A DNA stretch of 64,000 bases, taken from Bryoerythrophyllum caledonicum. Taxonomy: Eukaryota; Streptophyta; Bryopsida; Pottiales; Pottiaceae. The notes under the pieces are model-generated. The model was not told the DNA's origin. It worked only from the letters and a program-made list of their open reading frames with translations, and searched no databases. The translations under genes and the position numbers were made by a program. Positions 1 through 60,914 of the stretch are shown one piece after another. Positions within the stretch are counted from its first letter, which is position 1; each line of letters begins with the position of its first letter. Location: the NCBI GenBank assembly GCA_963971425.1, contig OZ020524.1, positions 8,993,845-9,057,844 on the forward strand. Direction: 5' to 3'.

Positions 1-1030
1 ACACAACCCGAACACCTCGACCACCACACCAAAAACAAGCAAAATAAGAATAATCGAGAAAGAACAAGAGAGAACGAGCGAGAACAAGCGTCGCAGCGAT
101 GCAACAGCAAGATGGGGAGTAGGATGCAAACCCTTATCCGGTCGGGTTTGGACCAAGCTCCGTCGTGAACCGGCGGAAGGTGATGCAATGGCAGAGAGAG
201 CAGCGCTGCAATCGCAAGATAGGGACTAAGATGCAATCCCTCGTCCGGTGGGGTTTGTCTCGAGCTCAGTCGGAGAGATGAAGAGCAGTGACGGCATATC
301 CTCGGCATATTCTTTGATGCCCTCCCTGATATCATGGACTGAACGACTTTTGACTGCATCAAGGTGATGGAATGAGATGCTCCTGTGCACATTCCCTTAA
401 ATCTGTGAATGGTATGGGCGAGTAGCCATACCTTGAAACTGGCAATGGTAGGGCCAGAATGCATTCACCATCGTCCAGTGCACCGATGAAATTGAGTAAG
501 AGCTGGCTTCTGTCATACGAGGTTGGGTACATTCTATCCCACCATCATCGGTACAAAAAGATTGGCACGCTAGATGGGGTCATGAGAGGTGTCCAAGTGA
601 TGCGAGTTGAGGCATAGGAATACGTGAGAATCACATGTGGAAGATGAGGACGAAAAATGTGCAGATCATGGAGATGTTCCCGCCGTTAAGCGGCATCCGT
701 CCTACTGCGCAGCTGCGGCCCTCAACCCGCTGCTTTCTGTTCGATTCATGTCTCATGAAGAGCTCAAAAGCGCTGAGAGAGAAATCGCTTGTACAACACA
801 CCAGCGTGCAGGCACTAAACTGAAGGTGACCGGAACAGTGTATGGACTCTTCTGTTGGCTTTAGTCCACTGGTTCCATGGGGCTTTCTTTCTGACACCCC
901 ATTCATCACTTTATGGTGAAAGTGGCAAAGAAAAATATGTTGAGAGACGTGTCAGAGGTTTGTCGAACTTTGAGAGCGGATAATATCGGAGCCATTTGAA
1001 CTTGGGGTCAGGGCTTTGTTTTTAAGCATG
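1..1030. repeat. Duplicated block, copy A (uninterrupted)
   Basis: This stretch closely matches 13,648-14,451 plus 20,051-20,325, starting at base 1, so the block continues left of the window. It contains an internal repeat of roughly 110 bp (around 95-260) built on 'gcaagatggggagt...ggggtttg'. No convincing coding region is visible; the short ORFs at 631-909 and 635-864 are not conserved in frame with the other copy. In copy B this block lies just upstream of the kinase gene, so a kinase paralogue may lie left of base 1 (inference). Near 752-757 it holds the unoccupied version of the copia insertion site. Confidence 0.8.
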
Positions 1031-2139
1031 ACCATGGATGGAAGAATGGAATGAAGTGTGGGAGTGAAGTATGTGACATGGAGAGTGATTTCACACACAA
1101 TTCATGCATGTTCGTTGTCGTCAGAACATGACTCGGTTGGCATTACTGTATCAGGTTTTCGCCCTCGCCCTTTTCAGGTTGTTTTCTAGAGGATGAAGTC
1201 AGAAGTTCAGCCCTGATACACGTGTTTAAAATCACTCCACCATCCAAGGACAAGAGTATAAATTCACAAGGAGAATACTAGGCAGCATGAAGTACCTCAC
1301 TCAAAGTTCCTGCACAAAGATCAGTCCCATGGAGGTGCTGATAGTCTTGAGTGGTGCAACTGAGGCGAGTAAATGTACATCGTACTTCTTACGAACAACA
1401 TGTATAGCTGAAAAGACAACGCCTTGAGCATGTTAAGCTGCAAATGGGGTTGTTTCGGACGTCCATTTCTGGACAGTTTTGGTGAAGCATCGATGAATAG
1501 TGTCCAAATTGTGCACATAGCGTAAAAATGTCGATAATAGAGCGCCGAAGACGACCTTACTTGTACTAGAGAGAATTCTTCCGACGCAGAGTGTAAAATT
1601 GCCTCAACTGCATAATGTTGATAGCATTATCGACTTTTCGAAAATGAAAATGCTTGTTAAGTTCGACCATTCCAAATTTTATAAAGTGTTCGGTAACATG
1701 GGCGGCATTTGACGGAGTTCGGCAGTTTAGAAATTTTGAATTAATTTAGAGATGCCAAAGTATCCAATTCTGTATAAAAAATGCCTAGTGTTTCCTACAA
1801 TTGAATCACTATGGTAAGCCACATCATCAGCTGTAATCAGTATATTAAGTAGAACAACCAGGTGCGCTTGACCTCGGCAATGACCACCTACAAGAGAGGT
1901 CGCCCTACCACTGGCGCAGCCATCGCGGAAGCTGAAGTATATGAGAAGTCAAACCTTATCTGGCGAGGAGCTTAAGCAAATGCTGCTATACATTGCAAAT
2001 CACAATCTCACGACAATTCCGATTTCGTCTTGTGTTTCAATGGTGACCTTCCACTAGATAATCTCCTGCCTCGATCTCTTGAATAATCTCATGGCTGAAT
2101 CTAACATTTGATAATTGATGATATCAAATATAAAGAATG
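1031..2139. other. No gene seen
   Basis: AT-rich intergenic DNA. The only ORFs are short and without recognisable motifs (for example 1,321-1,518 on -). I see no repeat termini here. Confidence 0.5.
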
Positions 2140-10537: not shown

Positions 10538-11476
10538 CCCCAAAATTACCAAGAGTCCCCTAGAGTACTCTTGAAGGTTTGGGCAGGTTCTTACAATGTC
10601 AATTTATAACATTTTCCTTTGATATTTTTACTGTAGATGGGCATTACAATAAGCTTAGTGGAGTCCAATTTTTTCCTAAGTCCGACATTTAATGAAAAAG
10701 TTACACGGTTATGAAGTTCAACTTGGGAGAGCGGGTACGTTGGGCAACTCCAAAAACTTTTGCTAGGGCACTCTATTGAGTGTGAGATTTTCAATACTAG
10801 CAAATAATATTATTTCTTTTCATATTGTCAAAAAAATTCCTTTATTTAATGTAAAATAGCATATTAATCCAAGTCAAACATTTTAACACATTGTCGCACA
10901 TTGTTGGGCAAGGTATCAAAAAATCATCTTCTTTTCCACATAAAACTTAGAGATCTTCATATTTTTCACTCTTTATTTTCCTCACCGCATTATGTGGTGT
11001 AAACCTTCTTATTGACCATTTGGATTCACATTCTAAAACATGTTGTGTTCACACAAAAATATTATGTGAATTGACAATTTTTGAACCTCCACAACCTGCA
11101 TAATTTTTTTGAATATGCTACACCCTTTCTTTACCTTTAAAATTTGGTGTACAAGGAACTAATATGCTTAACATGATAGTAATGAATTTAGATCTTGTGT
11201 AGTGCGAAAATTGGACACCAAGTCAAGTCTAGTCAAAGTCTCTTGATTCACTACTCGAAGGGAAGAAAATGAATTCTTTTATCTGCTTCAACACTATAAT
11301 CTTTCAAACCATGGGGCCAAAGTTTGTGAAATTTTGTGAGTATGCCACTCACTAAATCTAAAATGAGATTCTATGGTTTAAACTAGAAATAAAAGTTTTT
11401 TTTCTTCTTTACTCATTGCACTAAAAGAACACTTTCAAAGTGTTTTTGGTGTGAAATTGTCAAGGAGATTTAGGGG
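10538..11476 (-). mobile_element. TTAA-flanked piggyBac-like element, copy 2
   Basis: The right end reads ...GATTTAGGGG then TTAA (11,477-11,480). The left end starts CCCCAAAATTACCAAGAG after TTGA (10,534-10,537), a one-base change from TTAA. The interior matches the reverse complement of the element at 20,501-21,422 over most of its length, including the 'gaatatgctacaccc' region. Length 939 bp, non-coding. It sits about 480 bp downstream of the kinase gene. Confidence 0.7.
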
Positions 11477-13647: not shown

Positions 13648-14451
13648 CACAACCCGAACACCTCGACCACCACACCAAAAATCAGCAAAAACAAAAATGA
13701 ACAAGAAAGAACAAGCGTCGCAGCTTACTAGTGAAGTGGCGGAAGGTGATGCTGTGGGCTTGGGTCCTGGGAGCAGCGACGCAACAGCAAGATGGGAAGT
13801 GGGATGCAAATCCTCCTCCGCTGGGGTTTGGTCCAGGCTCCGTCGTAAACCGGCGGAAGGTGATGCTATGGCAGAGAGAGCAGCGCTGCAATCGCAAGAT
13901 GGGGAGTGAGTTGCAAACCCTCGTCCGGTGGGGTTTGTCTCGACCTCAGTCGAAGAGATGATGAGCAGTAACGGCATATCCTCGGCATATTCTCTGATGC
14001 CCTCCCTGATATCATGGAGTGACCGGGTTTTGACTGCATGAAGGTGATGGAAACGTCCAGGAATGAGATGCTCCTGTGCTCATTCCCTTGAATCTGTCAA
14101 TGGTATGGCCGAGTAGCCAGACCTTGAAACTGTTCATGGTAGTGCCAGAACGCAGTCACCATCGTCCAGTGCACCGATGAAATGGAGTAAGAGCTGGCTT
14201 CTTTCATACGAGGTTGGGTACATTCTATCCCAGCATCATCGGTACGAAACGATTGGCACGCTAGTCGATGGGGTCATCGCAGGTGTCCAAGTGATGCGAA
14301 TTGAGACATAGGAATACGGGAGATTCACATGTGGAAGATGAGGACGAAGAAAGTGCAGATCATGGAGTTGTTGACGCCGTTGGGGGGCATCCGTCCTACT
14401 ATTTTACTGCGGCCCTGAACCCGCTGCTTTCTGTTCGATTCATGTCTTATG
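13648..14451. repeat. Duplicated block, copy B, left part
   Basis: Matches 1-757. It lies directly upstream of the kinase on the opposite strand and probably holds its promoter or 5' leader (inference). Two related units of about 110 bp lie at about 13,790-13,950. A 209-codon minus ORF crosses it (13,348-13,977), but its Cys/Phe-rich composition and lack of conservation with copy A argue against coding. It ends in the copia target site TTATG (14,447-14,451). Confidence 0.8.
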
Positions 14452-14672
14452 TGTTGCGACCTGACGCCCTCGTCCACCTTTCTGTAGCCCAGAATCTACA
14501 CGTCATCTAGTGGCTTTTCATTCGTCATTCATTCATCCATCACTAAAGTGTATATATGTCACTCTCTCTCAGTAAAGGTTACGTCTTCACTGGTAGTGCT
14601 TTGTGAGTTCCTGCAGTCACAGTTTATGAACAGTAGTGCTTCATGAGTTCCTGCAGTCACAATTTATCAACA
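14452..14672 (+). repeat. Copia 5' LTR
   Basis: 221 bp, TGTTGCGACC to TTTATCAACA. It contains a 39-bp internal tandem duplication ('gtgagttcctgcagtcaca' seen twice) near its 3' end. TATATATGTC near 14,552 could be the TATA region. Bases 14,581-14,596 are inverted relative to the 3' LTR. Confidence 0.95.
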
Positions 14673-14684
14673 TGGTATCAAAGC
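14673..14684 (+). promoter_or_regulatory. Primer binding site (initiator Met tRNA type)
   Basis: TGGTATCAAAGC directly follows the 5' LTR. It differs by one base from TGGTATCAGAGC, the usual plant copia site complementary to the initiator tRNA-Met 3' end. Confidence 0.85.
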
Positions 14685-14942
14685 GACACTTAGAATAGAG
14701 TAGTGCTATGTTTACAATGAGAGATAGGTGAGAAGTTCTTCTTTGTGACGTAGAGAGAGAGCTCAGTGGAAGCGTTGCTCCTGAAGGCTCTGATGAAAGA
14801 TCAGTGCAACTCCTAGTTGAGAAGTAGACGAAGAGAGCTCAGTAGAAGTGTTGCTCCTGAAAGGCTCAAAAGAAAGAGTAGAAAGATCAAGAGAGAGATT
14901 AGTGAAAGTTGATAGAGAAACTCATTCAGAAAGTGAGAAACC

Positions 14943-16088
14943 ATGACAGAGACAGGCATTGTAAGAGAGAACGATAAGCTCAAAGGTATGGAGAACTTCT
15001 ATGTATGGAGTCTCAAGATGCGCGCCATCCTTCGCGCAGAAGGTCATTGGGGAGTTACAGAAACTGAACAGACGCCAACAGTTTTTCCAGCAACTGTTGA
15101 CAGTGAAGTTTTTTCTGAAGCTCAATTGAAGAAAAAGAAGGCTCTTGCATGTAGACTGATTTTATTGTCACTTGCAGATGATTTTGTTGACACTGTAGCA
15201 AATTTTACAGATCCTGCCAAGGCTTGGAAAGCTTTAAAGGACCAGTTCTCTTCTGGAGATCAATCGCAACTACTTACTTTAATGGGACAGTTACAGACCA
15301 TTAAGATGAGCGAAGGAGGATCTGTTGAAGGATACATCAAGAACGCACGAGAACTACGTAACAGACTCAGCAGTATGGGAGAGCGGGTATCTAATCAAAA
15401 TCTGAACCAGATTGTACTCAATGGTTTGCCTCGCTCCTATAAAGGTACGATTTAGACTCTCACTCATCTGGATCCAAACATGACTTTTGAAAAACTTTGC
15501 TCAATGTTGTTATTGGAGCATCATCGTCGACAACACCGCACACAATTACTTGGAGACGAAGAAGCTTTAGCTACAAGCTTTAGACACTATCAGCCATTTG
15601 GAGGGTACAACCGTGGCCGAGGCGGAAGATGGAGCCCACGCGGTTTTGGACGAGGTGGACGCTTCTCCAATGGTAGGTGGGTCTACAATCGCCCACCGAA
15701 CCCTGCTACCGTTGCGCCGAACTCCATGAGTGTAGCAGCTCATTACCAACGTTCAGGACCGATGCCGCAGCGACCTGGACAACATCGACCACCGAGAACG
15801 CACATCGTCTGCTACGCGTGTCGAAAACCCGGGCATATAGCACGCGAATGCAACGTCGCACCACCACCAAATGAAGGGACAACATATGCTTATTCAGCAG
15901 AGATGTTTGAGAATTATCATGATCATAGTTACAATCAGTATTATGAACCGCAGTATTATGAACCGCAATATTATGAACCGCAATATTACGAGGGATATAA
16001 TCCATGGTATGAATACAGTGGCGCCACAGCACATATAGGGTTAGACATGAGCAAACTAGACGAACAGCCAAGTACTTCTGGCCTGTAG
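14943..16088 (+). pseudogene. Copia gag and start of protease, broken by an internal TAG
   Basis: Nucleocapsid polyprotein. Residues from 14,943 to 15,452 are a UBN2/retrotran_gag-type domain (WSLKMRAILRAEG near the start, then ALKDQFSS and GYIKNARELRNRL). TAG at 15,453-15,455 interrupts it; the same frame reopens and continues to 16,088. A CCHC zinc knuckle CYACRKPGHIARECN lies near 15,810-15,853, after an Arg/Gly-rich stretch. Then come three 15-bp repeats coding YYEPQ (15,939-15,983). The protease active-site motif, usually DSGATxH, reads YSGATAH near 16,018-16,038, so the catalytic Asp is lost. The start ATG is the first after the leader. Confidence 0.88.
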
Positions 16089-16122
16089 CACTGTCAAAAC
16101 AGGCGGTGGCGAATCACACACT

Positions 16123-17353
16123 GTGAAAGGATCTGGAACTTCCACAATTCGCACGATCAATGGTGAAATAAAGCTTGAGAATGTTCGCTACGTATCGTCT
16201 ATGAAGAAGAATCTTGTCTCAGTAGGCTCCATTACCGATACAGGCTATACAATATTGTTTTCAGCTACAAACTGTTGGATACTTGATGGTGTAAATATCA
16301 TGGCGACCGGGTTTAGAGACAAGACCAATGGTTTATATTCATTTCAAGAACTTGGTTTAAACTCATTTCATGCACTGTCATCAGAAACCAAAGATGATAC
16401 GGATATTTGGCATCGCCGGTTAGGTCACCTCAGTTACTCAAGTTTGAGTCATTTATCAAAATCAAATCATGTTACAGGACTTCCCAACATCAATGTCAAG
16501 CAACATATATGCCAATGTTGTCTGGAAGGAAGACAACACCGTGAACGATTTCCACGTCATTCTGAGACAAGAGCTACACAACCAGGTGAATTTATTCACA
16601 CCGACGTGATCGGCCCATTACAAAGACCATCTTTGGCTGGTTCAATATACATATTAGTATTTACAGATGACTTTTCACGCAAGAGTTGGGTTTATTTCAT
16701 GAAACACAAAAGTGAGACATTTGATAAATTTCGTATCTTCAGAGCGAAACTTGCATCAGAGACAGGCAACACTTTGAAAACATTGCGCTTGGATAGAGGA
16801 GGCGAATACTTGTCAGACGAATTCAATTATTACTACTCGAGGCTTGGCATTCATCGTGATCTCACGCAAGCAAAGACGCCGCAACAAAATGGTGTAGTAG
16901 AACGTCGGAAATTGGAATCGCACACTATCGGAACGCGCAAGAAGTATTGCATCTGACAGCAAACTCCCTTATTTTTTGTGGACTGAAGTAGTCAGCATGG
17001 CCAACTTTCTCATTAATCACAGTCCAACGCACGCAAATTCAGGAGTTCCTCCCCAAATTAAATACTCAGGTAATACGATTGACCTTGACAAATTAAAGAT
17101 CTTTGGATCCGCCACGCATGTTCATATCCCAGATAGTGACAGGAAGAAGCTGGACAACAAATCCAAGAGATGCATGTTTACAGGGTATGACGAATCCACC
17201 AAGGCTTATAGATTATATGATCCAAGCAGCCGGAAAATCATAATTAGCCGAGATGTGGTAATTAATGAGGCACAGGTAGGGTACGGTTTTTTGTTCTCGG
17301 GGCAACTTGACGAAGACCTGGCCACTTTACACATGCCAGCCGCCTCTGTCTAA
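16123..17353 (+). pseudogene. Copia integrase (gag_pre-integrase plus rve core), frameshifted
   Basis: Frame shifted relative to gag. Contains the HHCC zinc part (WHRRLGHLS, later CQCCLEGRQ) and an RNase H-fold core with the D,D-35-E residues at HTDVIGP, LRLDRGGEY and GVVERRK. The frame is lost near 16,950 and resumes at 16,976 in the frame used by the RT, ending with TAA at 17,351. The C-terminal part (IFGSATHVHIP, RCMFTGYD) is the usual copia integrase tail. The domain inserts element cDNA into host DNA; this copy is inactive. Confidence 0.88.
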
Positions 17354-17386
17354 ACAACACCTGAACCTAACGAATGCACGTCAACA

Positions 17387-19267
17387 GTGCCCCACTTTTC
17401 AGAACTAGATGAGCATCACAAGGCACTTCGTCAGCTTGACCACGACCAGTTTGTCAGCTCCCCGCAGACTGCCAGCTACACGAGGACTCCTAGCCCACTT
17501 ACCAACGCGCCACTCCCTGCCAACTCCTTGCAACTGCAGCCCCGTCACCTTGACATAACTCCTAGTGTTCCTCAAACCATCCAGCCTGCCGCTGACATCA
17601 ATCAACGCCTCTTACCGTTGACTACCGCTGTCGAGACCGACGTTGTCCCCGCTCGCCGAAACCCCTCTCGCCAACGCCAACCTTCAATACGACTTCGAGA
17701 TCATTGGACATTCATTGCAGATTATTCACCTGAACCATCCTCCTATCAAGATGCAATCCAGGAGCAGGGCTGGAGGCAAGTGATTCAAAAAGAAGTGGAT
17801 TCGATCATTTCAAATCAGACATGGGACGTCATTGACAGACCAACAGACCAAAATCCAATCACAGCCAAGTGGATTTTTAAAGTCAAGCAAAGTGGGGATA
17901 TACCACAATTGAAAGCACGAATTGTAGCCCGTGGTTTTCAGCAACAAGCCAGTGTAGATTACCAAGACATTTTTGCGCCTATAGTAAGATGGTCTACTAT
18001 TCGCATTGTCCTCGCCTTAGTAGCCAAGAATAATTGGCCGCTTCACCAGCTTGATGTTATCACCGCTTTTCTCAACGGAAAATTGAACAAGGCTATTGTA
18101 ATGGAAATCCGAGAAGCCTGGTTTCCCGGCGCAGGTGATCCCTCAAAAGTATGTAGAATCAAAAGAGCTCTCTATGGTTTAAAGCAGGCTCCCAACGCCT
18201 AGTATGAGATAATAGATTCTTGGCTTCTATCTGAAGGCTTAACTCGCAGCCAGCCCGACCCCAACATGTACTATGGCAAGAGAAATGGCAAACAAATTAT
18301 TGTACTGTTGTACATGGATGATCCTCTTATAACCGGCGACGACCACGAGCGCATCATTCAATTGAAAGCAGCTCTCAAACGTGAGTTTGCCATGACAGAT
18401 CTAAGGGAAGCAGGACTTTATTTGGGAGCAGAAATCACTAGGTACAAAAATGGAATATTGATCACTCAAACCAATTACATCAGAACACTGTTAGCCAAGT
18501 TTAATCTGCAAAATTGCAACCCATGCAGATTGCCAATGGACCCTAATATACTACTTCAACGTCATATGGGCACACCATTGACTGATCCTCAACCATACCG
18601 CTCATTAGTAGGAAGTCTCATATACCTTACCAACACTAGAGCTGATCTTTCCTATGCCGTTAGCTGCGTTGCCAAGTACATGGACTCACCTGAAGAAGTC
18701 CACTATCAAGCTGCAAAGAAAATACTTTGCTATCTAGCAGGTACCATGGATTACGGACTCTTTCTCTCTTCTGATAACTCCGATTTATTCTACACTTATG
18801 CAAATGTGGATTGGGGGAGGGATCTAGACACCCGTAGATCAACATCCGGTATCCTTCATAAACTTGGCAACTCTAGCATCTTCTGGACTAGCAAACTACA
18901 GCCTACCATTTCCTTATCTACAACAGAGGCTGAATATAGGATGTTAACAGATGCAGCTAAAGACATTCTATACTTTCGAAGACTTCTCCTTGAGCTCGGA
19001 CTTAGCATACAGGACGCAACTCCACTCATGTCAGACAACCAATCATGTATAAAACTTGTCCACAATCCTGTAATGCACTGCCGGACCAAACATATAGGAA
19101 TACAGGAACACTTCTTTAGAGAAACTCAACAAAATGGTGACATGCAGGTGCTCTATACTCCTACAGAAACTTAACTGGCAGATTTCCTAACCAAAGCCCT
19201 ACCCTTCATGAAATTCTCAACTGACCGCATCAATGCTGGAATTATTTCTGCTCAAACTCTAGCTTAG
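17387..19267 (+). pseudogene. Copia reverse transcriptase and RNase H, three stops
   Basis: In frame with the end of integrase. The RT begins near 17,790 (WRQVIQKEVDSI, TAKWIFKVK, ARIVARGFQQ) and carries the catalytic YMDD at 18,311-18,322. RNase H follows (RSTSGILHKLG, SLSTTEAEY, KHIGIQEHFF). TAG at 18,200 replaces the Trp codon usual after QAP(R)A, and TAA at 19,172 replaces the Gln usual in YTPTETQLADF. The reading would end at TAG 19,265-19,267. Simple base changes account for the stops, as expected after insertion. Confidence 0.9.
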
Positions 19268-19770
19268 CCTTCACCCACGCTGGAGTTTGCCAACCATCGA
19301 TCCACAGCCCTCTTCGTGTAGACTTTTGCTTGAAATCAGGGGTCTTAGGATTCAACTTCGTACTCCTATTATCCCACCATTCACCAGGGTTGTCAAAATA
19401 CTCCAACCACGCTCTCTCCTCACTGTCAACTGTGTTGTTTACGTATGAAACCCTAGAAGAGCTTGCTACCGACTCCTCCATCATCTCTTCATGAGGCCGT
19501 CGAATTGTTGTACTCACCCAAAAGAAACAGGTACTTAGGACTCCGTCGCAGATTCGCCGCAAGATGACCGCAATCAGCCATAGCACAATGAGCAGGATCT
19601 CCACCTGCATGCAACAACCGACACATCAGCAAACAAAAACAACCTGGAACACCTTCCAAACCACAAACACTCACCACTGACAACTTCTCAACGTGCTCCC
19701 TGAGTACCACCGCCGTCTCCTCCGACATTGTGCAAAATCTCAACATCCCCTCTCTCTTTCCTTCCAACGT
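19268..19770 (-). pseudogene. Captured OSB gene fragment, antisense inside the copia element
   Basis: On the strand opposite to the element, between pol and the polypurine tract. The minus frame near 19,450-19,270 reads a typical OSB PDF motif: WLEYFDNPGEWWDNR, then NPKTPDFKQK, LWIDG and PAWVKAKLE. OSB proteins are plant organellar single-stranded DNA-binding proteins acting in mitochondria or plastids; the PDF motif is their C-terminal DNA-binding unit. An upstream exon (19,767 downward, MEGKREG...) joins in frame if a 70-bp GT-AG intron at 19,674-19,605 is removed (exact frame agreement, 157-70=87). The N-terminal OB fold is not visible, so this is a fragment. Host origin and capture are inference, but the motif match is strong. 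Confidence 0.78.
19605..19674 (-). other. Predicted 70-bp intron in the captured OSB fragment
   Basis: Starts GTGAGTG and ends TTGCATGCAG on the minus strand. Removing it joins the two open minus frames exactly. Because it is antisense to the element's RNA, it would not be spliced during retrotransposition. Confidence 0.65.
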
Positions 19771-19816
19771 TGATATTCAAGTGACTGCTCTCGTCACAGC
19801 AACTCAAGATGTGGCC

Positions 19817-19831
19817 GAGAGCGAGGGAGGG
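19817..19831 (+). promoter_or_regulatory. Polypurine tract of the copia element
   Basis: GAGAGCGAGGGAGGG lies directly upstream of the 3' LTR, the usual plus-strand primer position. It is not a perfect purine run (one C). Confidence 0.75.
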
Positions 19832-20050
19832 TGTTGCGACCTGACGCCCTCGTCCACCTTTCTGTAGCCTAGAATCTACACGTCATCTAGTGGCTTTTCA
19901 TTCATCATTCATTCATCCATCACTCAAGTGTATATATGTCACTCTCTCTCAGTAAACTACCAGTGAAGACATAGTGCTTCGTGAGTTCCTGCAGTCACAG
20001 TTTATGAACAGTAGTGCTTCATGAGTTCCTGCAGTCACAATTTATCAACA
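19832..20050 (+). repeat. Copia 3' LTR
   Basis: 219 bp, same ends and internal duplication as the 5' LTR. Bases 19,957-19,972 are the reverse complement of the corresponding 5' LTR bases apart from one change. Confidence 0.95.
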
Positions 20051-20325
20051 TTATGAACAACTCAAAATCGCTGAGAGAGAAGCGCAAGTCCAACACACCA
20101 GCGTGCAGGCACTGAACTGAAGGTGACCAGAACAGTGTATGGGACTCTTCTGTTGGCTTTAGTCCACTGGATCCATGGGGCTTTCTTTCTGACACCCCAT
20201 TCAACACCTTTTGGTGAAAGTGGCAAAGCAAAATATGTTGAGAGACGTAGCAATGGAATGTAGAATTTGAGTGTCTATTGCAGATCCATTTGAACTTGGG
20301 ATTAGTGCTTAGTTTACAAGCATGA
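20051..20325. repeat. Duplicated block, copy B, right part
   Basis: Resumes the match to copy A (about 752-1,030) right after the copia TSD. Similarity fades near 20,325. No gene. Confidence 0.8.
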
Positions 20326-20348: not shown

Positions 20349-20500
20349 GTTACCACTTGAAGGACATGATAAAAGCTGCACTTTTAACAGGTCTACTCAC
20401 TGCCAATGTGTAATTTTCATTCCTTGAGTCAAAAACACTATTTTTACTACTTCTAGAAGGTTTTACCATTTGAAGCATATGGTAAAAGCTGCACTTTTAA
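20349..20500. repeat. Pair of 43-bp direct repeats
   Basis: Two similar units ('taccacttgaag...taaaagctgcacttttaac' type) at about 20,349-20,391 and 20,459-20,501. The second ends at the TTAA used by the adjacent TTAA element. Confidence 0.6.
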
Positions 20501-21422
20501 CCCCTAAAGGACCACGACCTAATTCGCTCTAAAACCAGTCCAAAACTGCCACTGTCAAAAAGAGACATGAAAATCACATTTTAAAGTGAATTTTGGATTT
20601 TCAACCGTAAGATCTTAAAATAGACTTCCATATAAACATGCCATCAAATTTTGGTTGCAATCCACCGCATGGATTGATAGATTTTAGTGTTTAAAGTCAA
20701 ACAATGGTTCATTTTCATCCCTGCGTTGAGTAGATCAGCTGACTTTGACTTCATTTTGTATCAAATTTTTGCATTGTACAGGGTCTAAATCTTTTACCAT
20801 TGTCTTCAACATGATGCTATACCCTACACACCAATTTTTAGAGGTTAAAAAGGGGTGTAGCATATTCAAATCAAGTGTGCAAGGAGTGGAGGTTCAAAAA
20901 TTGCCATTTCACGTTTTATTTTTTTGTGAACTACGTATGTATTCAAATGATAATCCAAACGGTCAATGAGAAGGTTTTCACCATATATTGTTGTTGAAAA
21001 AAAAAAAAGTGAAAAATATGAAGATCTCTAGGTTTTATGTAGAAAAGATGAAGTTTTTTTCCCCGTTGCCCAACAATGTGTGAAAATGTTTGACTTGGAA
21101 TAAAATGCCTTTTTACACTAAAGACAAGAATTTTTTTTGAAATTTTCTAAATAAGGAAATATTCTTTATATGTGTGAAAAATCTCAATGTCAATAGAAAC
21201 TTTTGTCAAAATTTTTGGAGGTGCCCGAAGTCCCACTTTTGGCTTTAAGTGGTACTAACTTTCAAACCACAAATCCAAAAAAAGATTAAAAAAAATCTCC
21301 ACGAAGCTCTTATCAGATCCTATCTTGAAAAAAAAAATCAATTAAAAAGGATTTTTTTTCAAATTGTAGGTACATGCCCAAAATCCAAAATGACCCCGGG
21401 GGGACGTTTGGTCCTTTAGGGG
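20501..21422 (+). mobile_element. TTAA-flanked piggyBac-like element, copy 3 (best preserved)
   Basis: 922 bp with perfect ends: TTAA (20,497-20,500), CCCCTAAAGGACCA ... TGGTCCTTTAGGGG, TTAA (21,423-21,426). This is the clearest member of the family. Its internal core is AACCGTAAGATCTTA followed by TAGACTTCC. The interior is AT-rich and non-coding; the 74-codon ORF at 20,745-20,969 has no motif. It depends on a transposase encoded elsewhere, if one still exists. Confidence 0.82.
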
Positions 21423-39171: not shown

Positions 39172-39444
39172 TTATGGTACTTGGTATAAAGTATATTTTG
39201 GCGTTTTCTTATGTGTTGTGGGATGTCTTTTTAGTACATTAGGCATGGGTCCCGAGTTGGTTTCTATATCTCCACTTAGTATTAATAGGGTTTTATAGTG
39301 TAAGGGTTTAATATGTTGTTTTTGGTTTATTGGTTTGTGTATATATTTTGGATATTTTCTTGTTTTTATGTTTTTGGTTATAGTATTTTTGTTTATGTAT
39401 GTGTATATGTTTTTGTTTGTGGGACTTGTTGTGATTTTGTTCAT
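39172..39444 (-). pseudogene. LINE ORF2 N-terminus with 2A-like motif
   Basis: The 91-codon piece contains LLILSGDIETNSGPMP near 39,249-39,290. D(V/I)ExNPGP is the 2A ribosome-skipping motif, known at the N-terminus of ORF2 in several LINE clades. Here the first Pro is Ser (NSGP), which would be expected to weaken or abolish skipping. Downstream the frame shifts before the endonuclease (KLQLEYKHIAQ region). Confidence 0.7.
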
Positions 39445-39479
39445 GCTTGTGATTTTGAGTGTTATATTTGGATGTGTAT

Positions 39480-40000
39480 TTTTGATGGTGTTTGTGTGGA
39501 CTTGTGCATAGTTTTTTAGATATGGTTTTGTGTGTGTCTTTGAGGTTGTATATAAGTGGGTTTTAGTTTGCGAGTGTGGATGTGTGGGTGTGTGTATATG
39601 TATGTGTGTGTGTTTGTGTGTATTTGTGGAATTATTTTGTGTGTTTGTATATGTGTGCGAGTGTGTGGATGTTTGTGTGTTTGTCTTGATGTGTTTGTAT
39701 GTGTGTATGTATGTGAGTGTGTATGCAATTGTTTTTGTTTGTTTATGTGAGTGTATATGTGAGAGTGAGGTATGTACTTGTATGGGTGTGTATTCGTATG
39801 TTCGTTTGTGTGTGATTGTCGGTGTGTTTATGTATGAATCTGTGTGTATTTTTGTATTTGTATTTATGTGAATGTATGTATGTGAGTTTGTATGTATGTA
39901 TGTATGTATGTATGTATGCCTGTAGATATAAGTGTATGTATGACTATATATATATGTATACGTATGTATTTGTGTGTGTCATGGTCCAAGTGTGTAGTAT
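39480..40000. repeat. TG/TATG-rich low-complexity spacer between LINE ORF1 and ORF2
   Basis: Long imperfect runs of TGTGTG, TGTATG and TATG (for example near 39,590-39,730 and 39,890-39,920). All ORFs here are Cys/Val artefacts of the repeat. Confidence 0.75.
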
Positions 40001-57900: not shown

Positions 57901-58815
57901 CCCCTACAGGACTAAATCTCCTTCGCGGAGAGTTTTCAATTTTGAAAAGGTTTCTAGAATTTGAAAAAAAGTAAAATTCTTTTGAAAATTTTATGTTAGA
58001 TTGTCCCTTGGGAGAGCTGTTTGAATGTATTAATTTTATTTTTTTGGATTCGTGGTTCCAAATTTAGTAGCACTCATAGTGAAAAATGGGGAGCCCGGGC
58101 ATCTAAAAACTTTTCCTAGAATTTTCTATTGACATTGAGGTTTTTCATACTCATGAAGAATATTACCTTCTTTAAAGATTTCCAAAAAAAATGATTGTCT
58201 TTATTGTAAAATCGCATTTTAATCCAAGTAAAATATTTTCACCCTCTTTCGGGCAATGTGCAATAAAAATTCTTCTTTTCCTCATAAAACTTACAAATTT
58301 ATATATTTTTCACTTTTTGTTTTGTTCCACTAAAAGATGTGCTCTACACCCTTTTATTGACCAGTTGGATAAGCATTCTAAAAGATATTTAGTTCACAAG
58401 TAATTGTAACGTGAATTGGCCATTCTTAAACCTGCGCTCGTTGTTCAAATTTTTTGAAGATGCTACACCCCTCTTTTACCTCTAGAAATTGGTGTATAGG
58501 GAATAAACATGATGCTTCAGACAATGGTAAAAGATTTGGAACTTTTGTACTTTAAACATTTCATAGAAAGTGAAGTCAAAGTCTACCGACCCGGGAAGAA
58601 AACTCAACCATTGTTTTCACATTAGACACTATAATCTATCAATCCATGCGGTGGATTGCAACTAAAAGAGTATGGCGTGTTCATATAGAAGTATTTTCTA
58701 AGATTTTATGAATGAAAATCCAAACCTAACTTTAAAATGTGATTCATTGCCTCTTTTTTTACAGTGACGGTTTTGGACTAGTTTTTGAGCTAAAGGCTCT
58801 GTGGTCCTTTATGGG
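57901..58815 (-). mobile_element. TTAA-type piggyBac-like element, copy 5
   Basis: Right end GTGGTCCTTTATGGG before TTAA (58,816-58,819); left end CCCCTACAGGACTAAAT after TTGG, a mutated TTAA. It matches the reverse complement of the 20,501 copy along its length, and is 915 bp against 922 bp. Confidence 0.75.
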
Positions 58816-58819
58816 TTAA

Positions 58820-59614
58820 AACACCATCCATGCCATTTTGTGGAATATCAAACATGGATGCGCCTTCTACAAGATTTGTGGGAAGAGAATGTGGTTATAG
58901 AATAGACCGTTACATGATAAAGGGTTGGATATCGAGCACCTCCAACAACAATGACAAAAGTTTCCATGGATTTTGGGTTTTTTCATGGTAATAACAAATA
59001 CAATTATACTTTGAAGCGTCCAATAAACATGAAATTGACAACTCTGAAAGTTTCAATTTACATGAACAGGAAAACTAAAATGTATTGTACATAAAATCCA
59101 CGAGATAATTAGACCTTCTTATTTTGGATTTCTTATTTTTGATTCGTGTGTAATGCGATGAATATTTTTGTGTAATTTTCAATTTTGTTTTGAGCTTCCA
59201 TGTTTATTACAAGAAAAGTTATCAGTTTTTCAATTTTGTTCCAGTATTTTCCTTGCGTCCAAAAAAATTTATAAAAATTAGAAATACCACATGTGAACTC
59301 CATCTAAAAAATACGAGACCCTAGATTTTATATGAAAAATATATAATATTTATCTAAAAAGAGCAACATACAACTTGCATCCAATGATAAGTAAAACTTA
59401 ATACAACATGTACATAAAGGATGTCGTGTACAAAAAAAAAATGAAAACTCTATACAATATCTTGTATGTAGAGACAATTTGAGAAATATATAGAAATCCT
59501 ATGCACGTATGGTATTTGCATAAGAATGTAACCTATGTTTATGTTATAATGTATTATGGACACGTTACCAATTTTGTACTACTAATAACATCATTTATTT
59601 GAAGATGCCATATA
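58820..59614. other. No gene seen
   Basis: AT-rich, no ORF above 60 codons, no repeat ends. Confidence 0.5.
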
Positions 59615-60270
59615 CATTTCATTCCTATCAACCGCACGGATTGATAGATCATGGTGTTTACAATCCAAACAACAACTCATTCTCTTCCCTGTGTTGATCC
59701 ATATTCATGAGACTTTGACAACACTTCGTATCATATTTATGTAATATGCAAGGTCTAAATCTTTTACCCTTGTCTTAAACTCTAAACGAACACGGCCAAT
59801 TTAGCTAAAAAATTAGTCCAAAACCGTCACATTGAAAAAGAGGCATAGCAATCACATTTTTCAAGTGATCTTTAGATTTTCAACCGTAAGATTCTAAATT
59901 AGACTTCTATATGAACACACCATGTTCTTATGGTTGCAATCCACCGAATGGATTGATAGATTATAGTGTAAACTAAAAACAATGGTTCATTTTCTTCCAT
60001 CGTTGACTGGTACCCTAGACTTTGACTTCGCTTTCTATAAACTTTTTACAATCCAAAAGTTCGTAATTTTATACTGTTCTGTGAAGCATGATGTTAATTC
60101 CATTTACACCAATTTGTAGAGGTAAAAAATGGGAGTAGCATATTCAAATAAATTTGTGCAAGGAGTGGAGGTTCAAACAAGGCCAATTCACATTTCATTT
60201 TTTTGTGCACCAAATATCTTTTAGAATGTTTAACCAAAATATCAATGAGAAGGTTTATAACACATCTTGT
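59615..60270 (+). mobile_element. TTAA-type piggyBac-like sequences, copy 6 (truncated) and an internal fragment
   Basis: 59,779 onward follows TTAA (59,775-59,778) and reads ACTCTAAACGAACACGG, then the family interior (TTTCAACCGTAAGATTCT, TAGACTTC) to about 60,270, where the right end is missing. Bases 59,615-59,774 match only the family interior ('ggattgatagat' to 'ggtctaaatcttttac'), so they are a separate partial copy lying directly before it. Confidence 0.65.
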
Positions 60271-60914
60271 ACAAGAGAAAACAAGATGTGACAAATTTAA
60301 CAAGGTGTACATTAATAGTTGTCCCTCTCTCTCTCTCTCGTTCTCTTCTCCTTCTAGTTTACTTGAGAGTTTAATTTTTATTTGGTTGTCCCTCTCTTCC
60401 TTTTGTCTTTTAAAAAAAAATTGGGATGTTCCTCCCCAAACTCACACCTTCTAAATTACTTAATATTTAAATCAATAATTGTCCCTAAAGCCTAAACTCT
60501 CTTCCTTCCCTTCTAATTTAATGAAGACTTCATTTATAATTGTCCGTCTCTCTTTTTTGCCTCCCAATTTTTTTTTGTTTTTTTAAGAACCTTCTTTATT
60601 TTTATTTGTAATTTTTTGCATTCTTCTCCACTCCTTCCAATAAAAAGAAAATGGAATTCTTTTGCCTTGGATCCTCTTTTTCTAATTTAACTAAGATCTT
60701 CCTGAACGATTGTCCATCTCTCCCTTCTCCACTCACTCCATCCAAATTAAATGAGATCTACATATATAAATGTCCCTCTCTCTCTCCCTCCCTTCTCTTT
60801 CCGTTTTAGTTCAAATCTGGAATTTTGTAGATTGTCACTCTCTTCTTTTCGTCCTCTTCATTTTTCAAATTTTTTTTCCCTATTTTAAAAAAAAATTCCT
60901 CCCGACTCCTTTAA
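60271..60914. other. No gene; CT-rich low-complexity
   Basis: Runs of TCTCTC (60,323-60,345; 60,775-60,800) and Pro/Ser/Leu/Phe artefact ORFs. Several partly similar 'ttgtccctctct...aatttaa' units suggest an old tandem array. Confidence 0.5.

Follow-up and report, generated by a model that had tools for sequence, protein, structure and literature searches.

We analyzed a window of 64,000 nucleotides from Bryoerythrophyllum caledonicum (contig OZ020524.1, positions 8,993,845 to 9,057,844), the whole of which is numbered from 1 here, and focused on a Copia retrotransposon at positions 14452-20050. The Copia lineage to which this element belongs probably carries, between pol and the 3' long terminal repeat (LTR), an antisense accessory gene that is lineage-wide, spliced as predicted from its sequence and encodes a PDF-domain protein of host origin. 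It looks like a complete small gene, old and maintained as an accessory, and not like a stray captured fragment. A preliminary description of this DNA had recognized the element, the motif, its orientation and the intron, all of which were corroborated, whereas its interpretation as a transduced fragment with an effect on the donor OSB gene did not hold.

An antisense gene with a predicted intron between pol and the 3' LTR

In the window, the antisense gene spans positions 19728-19242 of the minus strand and consists of exon 1, an intron and exon 2. The seven Copia families in which the same gene was compared are referred to as A to G, A being that of the window element. The features of the gene are as follows:

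19675..19728, minus strand: exon 1, 18 codons (MSEETAVVLREHVEKLSV); a similar exon 1 is found in other families
19605..19674, minus strand: GT-AG intron, 70 nt, phase 0, at the same place in families A-G
19242..19604, minus strand: exon 2, 120 codons plus stop
19560..19604, minus strand: hydrophobic segment VEILLIVLWLIAVIL, then RR, assigned by hydropathy
19245..19430, minus strand: PDF motif of the OSB type
19931..19936, minus strand: TATATA, 208 nt upstream of the antisense ATG

The intron (19674-19605) reads GTGAGT...GCAG and joins two open frames in phase 0, in agreement with the preliminary description of this 70-bp interval. The minus strand is open from 19604 to 19245 and carries WWDNR, PDFKQK, LWIDG, and PAWVKAKL, which confirms the reported OSB PDF motif lying antisense between pol and the polypurine tract (PPT). 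The pattern WWDNR-N8-PDF had one match in the window versus 0 in 100 shuffles, and a variant also requiring Lys had no match in a prokaryote genome collection (84,980 species); on these two results, a chance origin of the motif was rejected. Two other readings of exon 2 were discarded: another frame (GDPAHC...), because frame 0 is conserved in six families, and splicing of a second intron at the donor-like site 19517, because the frame through this site is the conserved one. The last codons and the stop of pol (TAG, 19266-19268) fall within the antisense frame (19242-19268), so that pol and the antisense gene overlap at their ends. Judging by hydropathy, the hydrophobic segment is predicted to be a membrane anchor or a buried helix.

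The gene is present in at least seven families, and one model fits the representatives of A-G: exon 1 is short, the phase-0 intron has 62-78 nt, and exon 2 encodes a hydrophobic segment and the PDF motif with a variable linker between them. The introns measure 70, 76, 70, 74, 62, 78, and 65 nt in families A to G, respectively. Exon 1 ends alike across the representatives (e.g., EHVEKLSV, EYVERLSV, EQIERLSA, EQVERLTS, and DQVDRMSV); a GT donor comes next, and the AG acceptor precedes an exon 2 that begins with V/G/A-x-I. GT...AG sites, from which splicing is predicted, were located in 24 of 30 loci. The other six comprised one without acceptor, one with an acceptor and no matched donor, and four in which the place was not matched by the pattern. 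Over six families, 26 columns of exon 2 are invariant; they include the RR that follows the hydrophobic segment as well as W, NR, PDF, LW, and TP.WV within the motif. The 3' LTR is a possible source of an antisense promoter, and in all five representatives examined (A, B, C, E, and F) a TATATA lies 118-208 nt before the antisense start codon. It should be noted that TATATA is a palindrome and may therefore do no more than provide the sense promoter of the LTR with its TATA box.

Distribution and conservation among Copia elements

The search was carried out in one genome of 437 Mb. With the insert as DNA query, 15 places were listed, eight of them full length at 86-100% identity. All eight full-length copies lie in the same Copia family (A), between pol and the LTR and collinear with both. 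Other copies of the element with the same insert, which the preliminary description had suggested looking for, thus exist, and a rearrangement at the window site after insertion was rejected because all eight share the insert. Family B, whose reverse transcriptase (RT) is ~73% identical, has the motif at the same place; its exon 1 is similar, its intron measures 76 nt, and its exon 2 opens with hydrophobic residues.

A 62-residue PDF motif query yielded 106 matches in the genome, and the best 30 of these were without exception antisense directly after a Copia RT. A second search started from the RT, and its places were therefore not chosen by the insert. Among the best 130 of 2426 RT candidates, to which all RT-based counts refer, 49 were followed by a PDF match within 3 kb, in every case antisense and at a distance of 74-189 nt downstream. 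A PDF match was present at 8/8 places with an RT identity of at least 85%, at 6/6 with 70-84%, at 30/67 with 60-69%, at 4/9 with 53-59%, and at 1/40 with 50% or less; expressed differently, the carriers made up 14 of 14 places at 70% identity or more and 34 of 76 at 53-69%. For 57 PDF matches the RT list had no counterpart, and 12 of these were inspected. L090 and L091 have the PDF motif antisense to a Copia RT, the nine small loci L111-L119 include four antisense to a Copia RT and five of cellular type, and one match (L146) is the host OSB gene. Two further matches are additional hits in family A copies that are broken. No PDF motif was found after pol in five non-carriers with 3' parts that were examined (L106-L110).

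An RT tree was built from 53 rows, comprising 35 carriers and 18 non-carriers chosen from the list; L078, L090, and L091 were left out as too short. All 35 carriers and 12 of the non-carriers formed one clade (100/99), with three changes of carrier state compared to 15.1 in shuffles. With the outgroup, the tree most simply fits one gain and two losses. One carrier, L138, stands on a basal long branch, and its placement is unsure.

Codon comparisons, from which the L066 rows were left out, indicate that the PDF codons are under purifying selection between families. The nonsynonymous and synonymous divergences (dN/dS) of the PDF part were 0.29/1.57 for A-B, 0.31/2.59 for A-E, and 0.21/1.87 for F-G, corresponding to ratios of 0.11-0.19, with dS saturated in the other 12 pairs; family D is cut by a stop and contributed no PDF pair. 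Over three disjoint pairs, third positions held 71 of 149 differences (P = 2e-4).

Several observations weigh against an old gene that is maintained throughout the lineage. The dS was high or saturated in all pairs, the A-B pair, taken by itself, had only a weak third-position excess (16, 16, and 21), and within family A the PDF part had none. Only three of the eight family A copies (L054, L055, and L058) have both exons open and a GT-AG intron. In the broken copies the PDF part carries a frameshift (two copies) or a stop (one), or a break or stop occurs earlier in exon 2 (two); the donor GT is lost in three copies, and in one of them the acceptor as well. This breakage is expected of dead copies, but it is also expected of a gene that is no longer needed in that family. 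Among the best 30 places, 18 were without a stop inside the matched stretch. Exon 1 contains a stop in the representative of family F, and interruptions affect both family D copies. Identities in exon 2 and in RT were not correlated across six families (Mantel P = 0.21). No PDF match was found at 42 of the 90 RT places with at least 53% identity. The RT tree was computed under a simple model with a sample of 12 of 42 near and 6 of 39 far non-carriers, and L138 and L144 form long branches in it. The hydrophobic segment was read from hydropathy, and the PDF tree neither resolved the donor nor separated Copia from host rows.

Source of the PDF domain and competing explanations

Pfam, PHROGs, and PDB searches with the motif gave no match, phage and plasmid searches gave just E values of 0.6-6, and viral-contig protein scans and Rfam searches gave nothing useful. 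Since the profile libraries tried gave no match, the identity of the motif was settled within the same genome. In the host gene L146, on C15, two exons match SSB (PF00436; 24.5 and 27.9 bits, for a curated cutoff of 26 bits), and they are followed by a PDF motif that is 50% identical, as protein, to that of the window. By this domain order, it is the host's own OSB gene, with an SSB domain plus PDF. The window antisense protein had no SSB match in Pfam; after its 18-codon exon 1, exon 2 opens with the hydrophobic segment. It has in common with the OSB family the PDF motif but not the SSB-like OB-fold before it.

An intron interrupts the PDF motif soon after DNR in all six host-type loci examined (L146, L111, L119, L116, L115, and L112), whereas the motif is read through without an internal intron in the Copia copies examined. 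This difference fits uptake via spliced RNA or an uptake that predates the host intron. In a comparison with nine Copia rows, the closest host motifs were those of L111 (56-65% identity) and L119 (52-61%), each located upstream of a PPR open reading frame (ORF), while the OSB gene reached 46-56%. The split PDF motifs of L111, L115, L116, and L119 are located upstream of PPR-like ORFs on the same strand (assigned by Pfam for L111 and by eye for the others), and these loci are a possible PDF-PPR gene family or neighbors.

These data also bear on the earlier proposal that the element transduced a fragment of a donor gene with the same intron and that its antisense RNA could act on that gene. Instead of a fragment taken up by this element, we found a small but complete gene that has a conserved exon 1 and a hydrophobic segment of its own, is common to the Copia lineage and is without the SSB part. 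This intron is not found in the host OSB gene, which has a different one that interrupts its PDF motif. Antisense RNA from the element is unlikely to act on the host OSB gene: none of the 15 places listed by the DNA search with the insert falls there, and at the protein level the two PDF motifs share 50% identity.

A related motif, WDNR-x2-K-x5-PDFK, was observed in 53 IMG/VR viral contigs (L001-L053; e.g., L003:12674-13486, L018:5248-6180, and L029:1798-2520). It is surrounded by at least three Cys residues in 47 of the 53, resembling a zinc ribbon; two are cut short, and in four (L008, L029, L032, and L035) the motif is without Cys and resembles the plant PDF motif. Two of five viral ORFs tested matched ERF single-stranded DNA (ssDNA)-annealing proteins (PF04404). 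The strict viral pattern with C-x2-C had no match in prokaryote genomes. A prokaryotic or phage zinc ribbon was rejected as an identity for the window motif, which lacks the Cys residues that the prevalent viral form has. Going by an alignment, the PDF motif of plants may descend from this phage module, with the Cys residues lost.

How the antisense gene might work can be outlined by analogy. Minus-strand transcription would start from the 3' LTR and be followed by splicing and translation, as for plant antisense ORFs and for the retroviral genes HBZ and ASP. Because the RNA that is copied is the sense genomic RNA, from which an antisense intron cannot be spliced, the intron would persist. The earlier suggestion that antisense orientation explains intron retention is accordingly plausible, and the presence of the intron in seven families lends it comparative support. 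The PDF motif of AtOSB1 is sufficient for ssDNA binding, according to the accessible parts of two papers (PMC6963530 and PMC4166229). The Copia-encoded protein would be a membrane-linked binder of single-stranded nucleic acid, with the PDF part binding single strands as in AtOSB1, and may help a step in which single strands are exposed, such as minus-strand cDNA, the particle or the preintegration complex. Its PDF domain probably comes from a host PDF gene, perhaps via spliced RNA. The full scenario, in which an HBZ-like spliced minus-strand gene, with its intron kept as antisense, encodes a membrane-tethered ssDNA binder that was derived via spliced RNA from a host organellar DNA-maintenance domain and is used in replication of the element, is put forward tentatively, as possible rather than probable.

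Three other explanations were weighed against an old, maintained accessory gene. If this Copia copy or family had once transduced a piece of a host OSB gene, now a decaying passenger, then both the host relative of the PDF motif and the decay of the family A copies would be accounted for. However, seven families have a similar exon 1, the same intron place and the hydrophobic segment, the six families compared share the gene at RT identities as low as 58%, and dN/dS between families is low, which makes a one-off transduction very improbable. A role of the antisense transcript as RNA, forming double-stranded RNA with the sense transcript in a self-limiting silencing and leaving the protein incidental, is discussed for plant antisense ORFs in the accessible text of PMC7264820 and agrees with the LTR TATATA upstream of the antisense ATG in 5/5 representatives. 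Such a role does not require a third-position excess, invariant PDF residues or splice sites in 24/30 loci, and we regard it as unlikely.

The PDF domain could also have been captured repeatedly, from related host PDF genes, into an antisense gene that already existed. The PDF tree, with host rows among the Copia rows, the missing correlation with RT distance, and L138, a carrier that was examined over the motif itself, are in line with this, but the Copia motifs examined are without the internal intron that 6/6 host-type loci have, and the distance from RT is nearly constant. We assign repeated capture a low probability.

The window element and related systems

The remaining features of the Copia element and its empty site are as follows:

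14452..14672, plus strand: Copia 5' LTR (221 bp), repeat of 19832-20050
14447-14451 and 20051-20055: target site duplication (TSD) TTATG (5 bp), outside both LTRs
14673..14690, plus strand: primer binding site (PBS), TGGTATCAAAGC..., from the sequence
14943..16088, plus strand: gag (PF14223) and zinc knuckle (PF00098), by Pfam; an in-frame stop breaks the present copy
16123..19268, plus strand: pol with pre-integrase, integrase (rve), SH3-like, and RT (RVT_2) parts, by Pfam
19815..19831, plus strand: PPT adjoining the 3' LTR, from the sequence
19832..20050, plus strand: Copia 3' LTR (219 bp)
1..1035, plus strand: paralogous empty insertion site

With its LTR pair, TSD, PBS, PPT, and the order gag-integrase-RT, the element at 14452-20050 is a Copia (Ty1) element, as previously described. 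Its PBS presumably corresponds to tRNA-Met. The empty site matches both flanks of the element, joined with a single copy of the target sequence. The window copy of pol is interrupted by stops and a frameshift; we take it to include an RNase H part, on account of position. The LTRs differ by a few substitutions and by an inverted stretch of ~17 bp, TACGTCTTCACTGGTAG versus its near reverse complement (14576-14593 and 19956-19971), which reads as a microinversion in one LTR.

A dispersed repeat of roughly 300-900 bp (10734-11316, 20495-21422, 57901-58821, and 59771-60299; 71-77% identity) flanks the element on both sides and recurs near 58-60 kb. In a region resembling a long interspersed nuclear element, an ORF on the minus strand (39172-39978) contains LSGDIETNSGP, which we take to resemble a 2A-type peptide motif with one change.

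Among the plant elements with known antisense ORFs, Grande and RIRE2 are Gypsy elements. The closest known system is the antisense aORF-3R of plant LTR elements (Grande gene23, RIRE2, Retand TRP28, and PvRetro13; PMC7264820 and PMC11963269, in the parts accessible), and the preliminary remark that this position often holds antisense ORFs in such elements agrees with PMC7264820. Like an aORF-3R, the Copia gene is an antisense ORF between pol and the 3' LTR, present with conservation in most family copies. Some aORF-3Rs encode known domains with a presumed DNA-binding role; these are SMC in PvRetro13 and, in Retand, TRP28, Smc, topoisomerase 2, Mis12, and others. Retand is a Gypsy element according to these sources, whereas the window element is Copia. 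According to the review, these ORFs lack counterparts among gene sequences outside the elements, while here a host gene with the domain exists in the same genome. Neither do the accessible parts of PMC7264820 and PMC11963269 describe a conserved intron in an antisense gene, such as is present here.

HTLV-1 HBZ and HIV-1 ASP are minus-strand genes expressed from the 3' LTR (PMC9822710, as far as its text is accessible), as is proposed for the Copia gene, which is known here from sequence. HBZ has a spliced transcript and encodes a bZIP factor, unlike the PDF gene; the ASP product is a membrane protein. No sequence relation was expected or looked for; the antisense promoters of HBZ and ASP have no TATA box, whereas the Copia gene has TATATA. 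Plant OSB proteins, as described in the available parts of PMC6963530 and PMC4166229, share the PDF motif with the Copia gene, which differs in being retrotransposon encoded, without an SSB/OB-fold domain and without an intron inside the motif. An extra domain is likewise fixed in an element family in the orchid Gypsy m6A (N6-methyladenosine) demethylase ORF (PMC9289625), the ORF3s of bdelloid rotifers (PMC5408684), and maize Bs1 (as cited in PMC7264820). In the accessible passages of these sources, none is described as antisense and intron bearing, unlike the Copia gene. No earlier report of this antisense PDF gene was found in the open-licence PubMed Central literature, including that on Copia antisense ORFs and on mosses and lycophytes.

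A spliced junction can arise solely from the minus strand, so that the conserved intron is a natural mark of antisense transcription. For the Copia gene, the genome itself contains a host gene that has the domain, and the biochemistry of this domain is known. With this host gene and the known ssDNA binding of AtOSB1, both the origin and the function of the antisense gene are open to test.
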